64,000 nucleotides of DNA, taken from positions 868,001-932,000 of the forward strand of contig JAIQGG010000002.1 in NCBI GenBank assembly GCA_020072785.1, in the 5' to 3' direction. A model generated the notes under the pieces. It was given only the letters and a program-made list of their open reading frames with translations. It did not search any database and was not told the origin of the DNA. Each line of letters starts with the position of its first letter. The first letter of the stretch is position 1. The translations under genes were made by a program, and so were the position numbers. The DNA is from Terriglobia bacterium (GTDB lineage Bacteria; Acidobacteriota; Terriglobia; Acidiferrales; UBA7541). Shown piece after piece: positions 1-35,982 of the stretch.

Positions 1-3000
1 TCCACGCGGAGCCGGATCGATCCGGAGGGCTTGTTCTCGTCGAGATCCTTGAAGCAGAAGTAGGGTGTTCCGGATTGTTCGACGATCCCTTCGATCACGC
101 CGTAAATGGGTGCGTCATGGCCGCATTTGAAACTCGATATTTCCAGGGCGACCAGGTTGGGGTGACGAGCGGTAAATTTGGCCGCCCAGATCTTGTGGTT
201 TGCGCTGCAGGAAAAGGAGTTCTTCCAGCAGTCCGAAATATCTAGCGCGTGACTGATCACCCCTGCCCGGACCTCGTCCCCAAAGAGACGTTCCAGAATG
301 TCTTCGTCGAGCGGCAATGTATTCTGGGAGAAGATCGGATAGCCCAACTTCTGAAACTCTTCCAGGATTCCGTGATTCAGGCCGGGATCGTGGTGGTACG
401 GCCGGCCCAGCATGACGATGCCGATGCGGTCTTCGCGTTCGAGCTGGTCCAGCACGACGCGTGCCCGCGCGCGGATGCTGAGTTCGTAATCGCGCAGCGC
501 CTGGTAGCCCGCTTCGACGGCCCGGCCATTTTCTTCCTCGGACAAGCCCAGGATGGGCTGCCATGCCCGGTACATCTGAAAGGCAAACAGCTTGCGGTCC
601 GTAAAGTTCAGGATGGGATTCAGATATTTTACGTGGAGCTCAGCGAAGAGGTCGTTCTCCTTGGTGAACGCGGCCTTCACCGTCTCGGCCGTGGCCATTG
701 CGGTGGGGCAGGCGTTCGTTCCGGTCAGCTTCACCAGCGAAGAATGCAGAACGTCATACATCGGCAGAAAGATCGCCTGGAGGGGCTTTTTCTGGTGTTT
801 GACCTGGAGAAGGTCATACACGTGCGGGATAGCGATCTTGGCCGGGAAGCAGGGATCAATTGCCCCGCGGCTGGAGCCGCTGCGATAGAGTTCGGGAGTG
901 GTGTAATCCGAATAGACGATGTTCTCCGGCTGCAGGCCCAGGCTTTCCAGGTAGGCGTTGAACAGCGGGGCGTAAACGTAGGCATTCAAGACGCGCGGGA
1001 TCCCGACGCGCAGGTCCTCGCGGTTCTTCATCAGCGCGGCGCGCTCCTGATCGCGCTTGGACCAGGCGCATTGCGGAATCGGGTCAGCCACCAGCTTGGA
1101 GTTCCGCGAGCGGAAGACTTCCCGGGCAGCGATGTCCACAAAGTTGGGATTGGCGTCCTTGATCTGATCGATGCCGGCCTTGATGGCCTTCATCTCGCTG
1201 AGGTCCTCGACCGTGCCTTTCTCACAGGTGGCGATAATCAGGCGCTGCTCGCCCGCCAGCAGCGGGACTTTGGTCACCTTGGGGACGGAGGAAGAGCCGA
1301 GCTGCTCCAGCCGGATGTCGATGAACGTGCGCAGGCAGGTGTTTTTACAGAAATTGCAGCGGGTCTCTTCGCTGCGTGTAGTCCGGTATTCGATGCTGCG
1401 CACTGCATCGAGGCCGATAAAGGTTGTGCGCATCCCATTGCGCCACAGGCGCAGCGCCTCGAGGCCCGCGCCGATTGCGCCGGACTCGCCGCAATGCTCG
1501 TGAACGATGATCTCCGGCTCCTGGCCAGCGCCGCGGAAGCTGCCGCGGATAAAGTCCACCTCCGCCTTTACCACCGCTAGATTGTTTTGGGTCCCCCCTT
1601 GCAGGACGAAGCGCGAACCGAGCGCCGCCAGGTTTGGAATGCGGGCGACGTAGAGGAAGACGTTTTTCGGCAGCACCGCCGCCAGACCAGCGAGAATTTC
1701 TTCCGCGCGCCAGCCTTGGCGCTGGTAGTTCACGATGTCCGACTGCAGGAACACGGCGCAGCCATAACCGAAAACGGGCATGGCCTGAGCGGTGAAAGCC
1801 AGATCCGCGAACTCTTCCACCTTGAGTCCGAACTCTTCCGCCGTGGATTGCAGGAAGTAGCCGTTGCCCGCCGAGCATTGGGTGTTGAGCTTGAAGTCCT
1901 TTACCCGGCCGTCTTTGAGAATGATGAGTTTGATGTCCTGCCCGCCCACGTCCACGATCACATGGGGGTCGTCGTAGAACCGGAGCGCGGATTCGGTGTG
2001 CGCGACGGTCTCCACCAGCGCGACATCGGCCTGCAGCACGTCTTTGAGAATGTCCTTGGCATAGCCGGTCGTCGCCACGCCCAGAACGTGGAGCTTTGCG
2101 CCCTGCGCTTCCACCTGTCCGCGGAGGTTTTCGAACATGTCGATGGCGTCCTGGATCGGATTGCCGTTGGAAAGCTGGTACGCCTTGCACAGCAGATCGC
2201 CGTCTTCGTTCAGCAGGACGGCCTTGGTGGATGTGGAGCCGCCATCGAGCCCGATAAAGCCGCCCACGACCTGCCCTTTCTGGAAGGATGCGGGAATAAA
2301 GCGCTGGCGTTGGTATTTCGCCCGGAAGGCGTCGAGCTCGCCGTTGCCCTTCATCAATCCGAAACTGCCGGACTTGGCCTTTTCTTCCTGGCGGCCATAC
2401 TGGATGTAGTGGACGAGTTTCTCGGCGCCATGATAGCAACCGATGCAATCGTCCTCGGCCTGGCCAAATTCAATGGCGCCGAGCGCCGCGAAATACTGGG
2501 CGTTGTGCGGGACTTTGATCAGATCTTCGGGCTTCGCGCCCTGGGGAAGCTCAACCTTCCGCTCCTCCCACATGCGCGGGATGTTCGCCTGCCAGGCTTC
2601 CTGCATGCCCCGGATGAAGGTATTCGGCCCGCCCAGGAGCAGGACATGCGGCCGCAGGGTGTGGCCGCGCGTCAGTACACTCAGATTCTGCAGGACGATG
2701 GCCTCGAAGAGCGAAGCCAGCAACTGATCGGGCGGCGTACCGAGCTTCTGCAGGCTGTTGATATCAGTCTCCGCGAACACGCCGCACTTTCCGGCCACCT
2801 TATGCAACTTGATCCCGTGATATCCCTGGTCGCAGAGCTGGCCTGGGGGAATCTTGAGCTTGGCGTTGATTTTGTCGATGACCGCACCCGTGCCGCCGGC
2901 GCACTTGTCGTTCATCGAGGGAATCTTCTTCTTGCGCCCGCTTTCGTCGTCGTCCTTGAAAACGATGATCTTGGCGTCCTGTCCCCCGAGTTCAATGACG

Positions 3001-34125: not shown

Positions 34126-35265
34126 TTACTGGGTGAGGGCTTCGGCGAGGGCGTCAGCGACGCGGCGGATCTGTTCGGGGCGGAGCTCGGGGTACATGGG
34201 GAGGGAGAGGACTTCCTGGCAGGCGCGTTCGGTGTGCGGGAAGTCACCCGGCTTGTGTCCGGCGGAGGCGTAAAGGGGCTGCAGGTGCAAGGGGATGGGG
34301 TAGTAGACGCTGCTGCCGATTTTACGCTGGGCGAGGAACTGTTGCACCCGATCGCGGTTCGCTACGCGGATCGTGTACTGGTGGAAGACGTGGTCGTAGC
34401 CGGCGGGGATTTTGGGAGTGACGACGCCGGGTATTTTTTCGAGCAGAGCCGAGTATTCGGCGGCGTGCTGCTGGCGGGCGCGCTGCCAGGCGGGCAGGTG
34501 CTTCAATTTGACGCGCAGGATGGCGGCCTGCAGTTCGTCGAGGCGGCTGTTCCAGCCCGGCTCGCGGCTCACGTATTTTCCGGTTTGCCCGTGATTGCGC
34601 AGGATGCGCACGTGCTCGGCGAGCTGGGCGGAATTGGTGACCACCATGCCGGCATCGCCGCAGGCGCCGAGATTCTTGGTGGGATAAAAGCTGATGCCGG
34701 CGGCGTCTCCGAGCGAGCCCGTGGGGCGGCCCTGGTAGGACGCGCCGATGGCCTGGGCGTTGTCTTCGACCACGGGAAGATTGCGGGCGCGGGCAAAGGC
34801 CAGGATGGGGTCCATGTCCGCGGGCAAGCCGTAGAGGTGCACGACGACGATAGCTCGGGTGCGCGGGGTGAGGCGTTTTTCGAGCTCGCGCGGATCGATG
34901 TTAAAGGTGGCGGGATCGATGTCCGCGAAGGCCGGGCGGGCGCCCAGGGCGCTGACGGCGCTGCCGGTGGCCACAAAGGTGAAGGGCGGGAGGAGGACTT
35001 CGTCGCCCGGGCCCACGCCGCAGGCGCGCAGCGCGAGAATCAGGGCATCGGTGCCGGAGCCGACGCCGACGCCGTGGGCCGCGTTGCAGAGGCGCGCGAT
35101 CTCTGCGCCCAGCGCCTCGCCGTGGCTGCCCAGAACGAACTGCTGCGCGGTGAGCACGCCGTCGATCGCGGCGCGTACCTCTTCTCCGATCGCCGCGTAC
35201 TGGGCGTGCAGATCGATCTGCGGTATGGGCTGCAAGGCCGCCTCCGCCCGGAGCTTGTTGGTCAT
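34126..35265 (-). CDS. DegT/DnrJ/EryC1/StrS-family aminotransferase
   Basis: 379 residues, PLP-dependent sugar aminotransferase family. GVGVGSGTDALILALRACG starts the PLP domain, PVVEDNAQAIGASYQG holds the PLP-binding Asp, and SFYPTKNLGACGDAGMV contains the Schiff-base Lys. These enzymes aminate nucleotide-linked keto-sugars for surface polysaccharide or antibiotic sugars. It lies 36 bases downstream of the peroxiredoxin gene on the same strand. No sugar-biosynthesis neighbours are visible. Confidence 0.9.
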   Translation of the reverse strand: MTNKLRAEAALQPIPQIDLHAQYAAIGEEVRAAIDGVLTAQQFVLGSHGEALGAEIARLCNAAHGVGVGSGTDALILALRACGVGPGDEVLLPPFTFVATGSAVSALGARPAFADIDPATFNIDPRELEKRLTPRTRAIVVVHLYGLPADMDPILAFARARNLPVVEDNAQAIGASYQGRPTGSLGDAAGISFYPTKNLGACGDAGMVVTNSAQLAEHVRILRNHGQTGKYVSREPGWNSRLDELQAAILRVKLKHLPAWQRARQQHAAEYSALLEKIPGVVTPKIPAGYDHVFHQYTIRVANRDRVQQFLAQRKIGSSVYYPIPLHLQPLYASAGHKPGDFPHTERACQEVLSLPMYPELRPEQIRRVADALAEALTQ

Positions 35266-35301: not shown

Positions 35302-35874
35302 TTATTTCTTCGGCAACTTGGTGCAGACGGCGATGGCATTGTTGGGATTGATGGCGCCGGAGCCTTCCTCGATGTGCTGGATCACTCCCTGTTTATCCAC
35401 GACGAAGGTGGTGCGCTGCGCCCACTCGTACTCTTCTTTTTCGACCTTGTTTATCTGGAGGATGCCGTACTGCTTGAGGACCTTGCGGTTCATGTCGCTC
35501 AGCAGGGGAAAGGTGACGCCGAGTTTTTCGGCAAAGGCGTTGTTGGCGGCGGGGCTGTCGATGCTGATGCCCAGAACGACGGTATCCGTCGCGTCCAGCT
35601 TCTGCCTATCAGCCTGATAGGCTTGCAGTTCCTTCGTTCAACCCTCAGTGAAGGCCAGGACGTAAAAGGCCAGCACAACATTTTTCTTGCCGCGGAAGTC
35701 GCCGAGGTGCACGGGCTTCCACTTATTGTCGAGGAGCGTGAAATCGGGCGCGGTCTCTCCGACCTTCAACTGGGTGTGGGCAATCTCGGTTTTTTGGCCG
35801 GCCGGAAGCCGTGGGGCCAGGCCAGCAATGAGGGCCGTGGCGAGGAAAGAAGCCGCCAAACGTCTGCGATCCAT
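35302..35874 (-). CDS. Exported peroxiredoxin (AhpC/TSA-like) with in-frame TGA at the catalytic Cys: probable selenoprotein
   Basis: 190 residues if the single TGA at 35638-35640 is read as selenocysteine (residue 79). The frame is otherwise open from ATG 35874 to the stop at 35302-35304. Residues 1-26 form a signal peptide ([21 protein letters not shown]). Then come [27 protein letters not shown], the [17 protein letters not shown], and [12 protein letters not shown]. Peroxiredoxins have TxxC here, so the TGA replaces the peroxidatic cysteine. The conserved Arg sits in [10 protein letters not shown], and Cys184 may be the resolving cysteine. A stem-loop just after the TGA fits a bacterial SECIS. 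CAGGGGG precedes the ATG. The alternative is a nonsense-mutated or misread Cys codon, but the downstream frame and SECIS position favour selenocysteine. It would reduce peroxides in the periplasm. Confidence 0.85.
35604..35622 (-). promoter_or_regulatory. Candidate bacterial SECIS stem-loop
   Basis: On the mRNA strand the arms GCCTATC and GATAGGC form a perfect 7-bp stem with loop AGGCT. The loop begins 22 nt after the TGA. Known bacterial SECIS elements have a small apical loop with a G in its first two bases, 16-37 nt downstream of the UGA; this fits. It lies inside the coding region and its bases also encode ordinary residues, as bacterial SECIS elements do. Confidence 0.78.
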
Positions 35875-35982
35875 GAAACCCCCTGCGCGGTGAATTTGCA
35901 AACCCCAATGAGTATACGCCAAGCCAAGCCGGGAACGGAACCTCATGCGGCAGCCCGGGTTTGCGCCCGGCTTCGCGGGAAA

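Follow-up and report, generated by a model that had tools for sequence, protein, structure and literature searches.

The minus strand of the window, meaning the whole 64,000-nucleotide stretch of DNA analysed here, carries a peroxiredoxin reading frame broken by one in-frame TGA with a short hairpin downstream, which raises the question of whether this codon ends the protein or is read as selenocysteine (Sec) under the direction of the hairpin. Gene finders read UGA as a stop, and the gene would therefore be annotated as two fragments. Based on sequence comparison, we put at about 97% the probability that this hairpin functions as a bacterial SECIS within the coding region of a Sec-containing peroxiredoxin, in a soil acidobacterium of the order Candidatus Acidiferrales whose genus is Candidatus Acidiferrum or one near it. 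Sec-peroxiredoxins are already known and the case is ordinary in kind, but it is clean and has unusually strong evolutionary support, and it offers comparative verification of a signal that gene finders take for a stop. The features of the locus are collected in Table 1.

Table 1. Features of the peroxiredoxin locus, in window coordinates
Feature	Position	Strand	Basis or detail
Peroxiredoxin (AhpC/TSA) gene, very probably encoding a selenoprotein	35302..35874	-	190 residues if UGA encodes Sec; open apart from the single TGA; PF00578; homologues spanning the TGA
Predicted Sec codon, in-frame UGA at the peroxidatic Cys position (FTEG-U-TKE)	35638..35640	-	UGA or Cys in the aligned loci
Predicted SECIS stem, 5' arm GCCUAUC	35616..35622	-	Pairing, covariation, folding
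Predicted SECIS apical loop AGGCU, 22 nt 3' of UGA	35611..35615	-	AG[GT][AC]T at identical spacing in 85 distinct Sec sequences
Predicted SECIS stem, 3' arm GAUAGGC, without the U that precedes the lower helix in most relatives	35604..35610	-	Pairing, covariation, folding
Conserved C-terminal Cys, candidate resolving residue	35323..35325	-	91 of 93 main-class Sec proteins have a Cys further than +85 from Sec
Shine-Dalgarno-like AGGGGG, 4 nt 5' of ATG	35879..35884	-	Sequence inspection
Aminotransferase gene, co-oriented, 36 nt downstream of the peroxiredoxin stop	34126-35265	-	

The protein matches the Pfam family AhpC-TSA (PF00578) over the cut-off (E 3e-35), and its closest solved relatives include BCP/PrxQ-like peroxiredoxins. 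The TGA lies in the context AFTEG-U-TKELQAY, which forms a TxxU motif (T-E-G-U), at the place of the peroxidatic residue, occupied by Cys in homologues. Across 171 scored loci the catalytic codon was TGA in 139 and Cys (TGC or TGT) in 32, with no other codon; TAA or TAG was found in 0 of the 171. A pseudogene, or a TGA produced by sequencing error beside a coincidental hairpin, might be considered on the grounds that there is a single in-frame stop, that many of the genomes are metagenome assemblies, and that the hairpin alone would arise at roughly 1-2.5% of random sites. Such an explanation is scarcely credible against the recurrence of TGA, or else Cys, at one codon and the presence of Sec machinery in the genome. 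It is already refuted by conservation of the TGA with an intact frame on both sides, the downstream frame and the C-terminal Cys being conserved, while a sequencing error is very unlikely when dozens of independent relatives share the TGA.

The Sec machinery of the window's own genome was sought by family searches, which found selB (356 bits), selA (556 bits), selD (349 bits) and two tRNA-Sec (selC) genes with a TCA anticodon, so that all four genes of the SelA/SelB/SelC/SelD Sec-decoding trait are present. Within the phylum, SelB exceeded its cut-off in 67 of the 68 TGA-carrying genomes listed, against 254 of 396 genomes overall, and the lone TGA-carrying genome without SelB over the cut-off is 72% complete. 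A few genomes of the order have the TGA gene without SelB at the threshold used, and these are mostly fragmentary or incomplete; one that is 94% complete (G433) has a tRNA-Sec gene. The two tRNA-Sec genes of the window's genome lie outside the window, 3.6 kb apart (G000:C2:1112064-1112158 and 1115713-1115807; L011, L010, L018), score 60.9 and 66.2 bits and show several mutual differences; relatives mostly have one copy, though two were also seen in G410, G443 and G446. The selD gene (G000:C1:111200-112165; L192, about 2434-2436, minus strand) is itself a selenoprotein gene: it contains a single in-frame TGA, and downstream of this lies a stem, GAGUCC/GGACUC, whose loop is CGGGACGCU.

In bacteria, binding of SelB-GTP with Sec-tRNASec, delivery of Sec and competition with release factor 2 are known. 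At this locus, SelB-GTP carrying Sec-tRNASec would bind the hairpin loop as the ribosome arrives at the UGA, and the complex would deliver Sec there, outcompeting release factor 2, so that termination would be avoided. On the minus strand, the TGA (35640-35638) is followed by ACGAAGGAACTGCAA, GCCTATC (35622-35616), AGGCT (35615-35611) and GATAGGC (35610-35604). The preliminary description had proposed a candidate SECIS with a perfect 7-bp stem at 35604-35622 and an AGGCU loop that starts 22 nt after the TGA with G as its second base, inside the bacterial range; both parts of this geometry were borne out, and all seven stem pairs are Watson-Crick. Folding of 27 nt with RNAfold paired the A and U of the loop as well, resulting in 8 bp, a 3-nt loop and -11.3 kcal/mol. 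The bacterial SECIS model of bSECISearch, restated in PMC13188914, allows a stem of 4-16 bp, a loop of 3-9 nt and a spacing of 16-37 nt, with G among the first two loop bases, the pattern N-G-[G/U]-N-N, possible A-U closure and an MFE limit of -7.5. The window hairpin, at 22 nt, 7-8 bp and an MFE of -11.3 to -11.8 kcal/mol, agrees with every constraint of this model (PMC13188914), as the loop AGGCU agrees with its pattern; an Rfam scan of the window found no match to a SECIS family.

Statistics on the single sequence are less decisive. The energy of the 27-nt hairpin core was equalled by 4 of 200 shuffles, and the folding energy of the hairpin region over 53 nt was average (z -0.31), for which reason single-sequence folding energy was rejected as proof of a SECIS. 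Of random window sites, 2.5% have an unbroken stem of 7 bp or more within the SECIS distance range, and 1.2% do so when G in the first two loop positions is added; synonymous recodings of the window's codons kept 7 bp in 0.9% and an equal fold stability in 7.5%. The earlier statement that such a palindrome is unlikely by chance was right only to the extent of about 1 in 40 to 1 in 100 for the window alone. Taken alone the hairpin is suggestive as evidence of a SECIS, and comparison across homologues settles the matter.

Among 129 distinct UGA-containing sequences, 85 share the loop motif of the window, equally spaced from the UGA, together with a covarying stem. This class was chosen by the loop motif alone, the stem not being used in the selection; the loop is AGGCU in 57, AGUCU in 21 and AGGAU in 7, in all cases 22 nt after the UGA, and the stem varies, for example between GGCC-UAUC / GAUA-U-GGCC and GGCG-UACC / GGUA-U-CGCC. 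RNAalifold predicted just four apical pairs on the 85-sequence alignment, probably because a bulge shifts the lower helix among sequences, and the stem was therefore counted explicitly on an alignment of 77 distinct rows, against 500 shuffles and slid controls. Paired cells amounted to 84.9% (72.8% shuffled), cells changed on both stem sides to 68 (22.8 shuffled) and stem covariation to 0.292 (0.109 shuffled), values that 0 of 500 shuffles reached, although the aligned sequences are related and the cell counts overstate independent events. All slid controls scored below the true stem register. The pair-count and pair-type measures were weaker, these two of five covariation measures being reached by 40 and 52 of the 500 shuffles.

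A different possibility is that the UGA is indeed read as Sec but that the true signal lies elsewhere, the hairpin being a side effect of the conserved protein sequence. The hairpin bases do overlap conserved codons, and synonymous recodings that keep the protein retain a mean of 5.44 of 8 pairs (sd 0.10); the Sec sequences, however, pair at 7.34 of 8 (z 18.6), both-sided changes are seen in 7 of the 8 stem pairs, and Cys homologues of Sec ancestry lose the stem, which together make this possibility very improbable.

The perfection of the stem is a local trait. After the upper helix, on the 3' side, 81 of the 85 sequences have a U that is absent from the window's clade; it is unpaired opposite C and paired opposite A, and most relatives have it as an added unpaired base. 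The window and the sequences closest to it (L049/L062 and L050/L063) have another base in place of the U, and C pairs directly with G, hence the perfect 7-bp stem, so that the perfection claimed earlier is real in the window but represents a local variant of an element that usually contains a bulged U. As the second base of a codon that almost invariably specifies a hydrophobic residue (Ile, Met or Leu; Arg in the window), the U may owe its conservation to protein constraint. The SECIS of E. coli fdhF is likewise an in-frame hairpin directly after the UGA, SelB-dependent and with a short loop containing G, but its bulged U is on the 5' side, whereas that of the window's family, where present, is on the 3' side.

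Homologues with Cys at the catalytic position show the opposite behaviour. In seven from the same genus, the upper helix forms only 1-2 of its 4 pairs and the lower helix no more than 2 of 4, and the whole Cys set pairs at 3.36 of 8 against 3.33 in synonymous recodings (z 0.2), with no excess. The stem thus covaries in Sec homologues and is relaxed in Cys homologues, as the preliminary description had asked of a true SECIS. Of the two outcomes that it had named as fatal, a stem kept by Cys homologues was not observed, and the stem was present in 85 of the 129 Sec sequences, the other 44 having strong structures of their own after the UGA; its interpretation is supported by the sequence comparison. 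Pausing, mRNA stability or regulation of the aminotransferase gene, rather than recruitment of SelB, could also be imagined as the role of the hairpin, in view of that gene being co-oriented and only 36 nt past the stop. Presence of the hairpin with Sec and absence with Cys, a fixed spacing from the UGA and agreement with the bacterial SECIS model render any such role extremely improbable.

Six full-length Cys homologues of the same genus form a single clade (SH-aLRT 99) inside the Sec-protein clade (SH-aLRT 100), and the genomes of the same-genus Cys homologues keep SelB. Because of this nesting, the Cys clade is most simply read as a Sec-to-Cys reversion with loss of the element; the reversion loci, with SECIS lost and SelB retained, are L151-L156 and L088. 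A 2006 survey counted five Cys-to-Sec and no Sec-to-Cys conversions for peroxiredoxins (PMC1794560), to which the reversion found here adds. Together, the 85 distinct covarying elements and the tree-placed reversion make up a natural series of unusual size, from which one could learn what SECIS bases are really needed by SelB.

Sec-peroxiredoxins with the TxxU motif are a known family (PMC9312934; PMC1088965; PMC1794560), and PrxU of Eubacterium acidaminophilum is given, as cited in PMC9312934, as a Sec-containing member of the COG1225/PF00578 TxxU family. The window protein shares with the TxxU family the T-E-G-U motif, the AhpC/TSA domain and the predicted peroxidatic Sec, and belongs among the Sec-containing peroxiredoxins on these grounds, but differs by its conserved C-terminal Cys and a signal-peptide-like stretch at the N-terminus, the latter of which would predict placement outside the cytoplasm. 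It falls outside NCBIfam PrxU (NF040737), with 59 bits against a cut-off of 270, and scores 97 bits against a cut-off of 140 for PRK09437. Nor is it of the BCP/PrxQ two-Cys type, as main-class proteins have no Cys at +5 (0 of 94) and have Q or K there in 87 of 94. The Sec selenolate at the peroxidatic position would reduce peroxides, making the protein a likely peroxidase, and its resolution would probably fall to either the conserved Cys near the C-terminus or a thiol from outside the protein; a Sec-Cys resolving step through the former is plausible, because Cys is missing at +5 but present near the C-terminus in 91 of 93.

Peroxiredoxin homologues with exactly one in-frame TGA were counted in at least 68 of the 396 genomes searched in the phylum; for the order, the count was at least 59 of 95. 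Those relatives that bear names, which place the window in Acidobacteriota, Candidatus Acidiferrales, comprise Terriglobia metagenome genomes and also Candidatus Acidiferrum typicum, whose sequence around the TGA is identical to that of a same-genus genome (L051 and L064). The 2006 survey reported four selenoproteins in three families for Acidobacteria (PMC1794560). A search of mostly openly accessible papers found none describing an acidobacterial Sec-peroxiredoxin family and none on Acidiferrum together with selenium.

The other 44 distinct Sec sequences, mostly from distant or paralogous lineages, form 2.4 of 8 pairs in this register and so lack the element there, but downstream of the UGA they fold strongly into other shapes (mean z of -2.15 relative to synonymous recodings, with 93% of values under -1); for Cys sequences, folding after the catalytic codon gave a mean z of -0.20. 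Some same-genus genomes, for example G402, G418 and G421, contain both kinds of peroxiredoxin. It is tentatively suggested, at somewhat below even odds, that Acidobacteriota hold an old and widespread Sec-peroxiredoxin family in which a C-terminal Cys is conserved and the catalytic cycle is of the selenenylsulfide type. Its SECIS elements would take two or more geometries: a compact one with AG[G/U][C/A]U, and a long-stem one, its loop about 13 nt in length, that belongs to a paralogous lineage and can share a genome with the first. In a paralogous Sec-peroxiredoxin group (e.g. L175-L189), a long SECIS-like stem (CUUCCAG/CUGGAAG region) is closed by this loop of about 13 nt, longer than the 3-9 nt that the model permits. 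In one locus (L157, genome G412), a frameshift, which could be an assembly error, breaks the TGA gene shortly after the SECIS. A related TGA-containing peroxiredoxin was also seen outside Acidobacteriota, on a Deltaproteobacteria/Myxococcota metagenome contig (L054), with a different element after the TGA.
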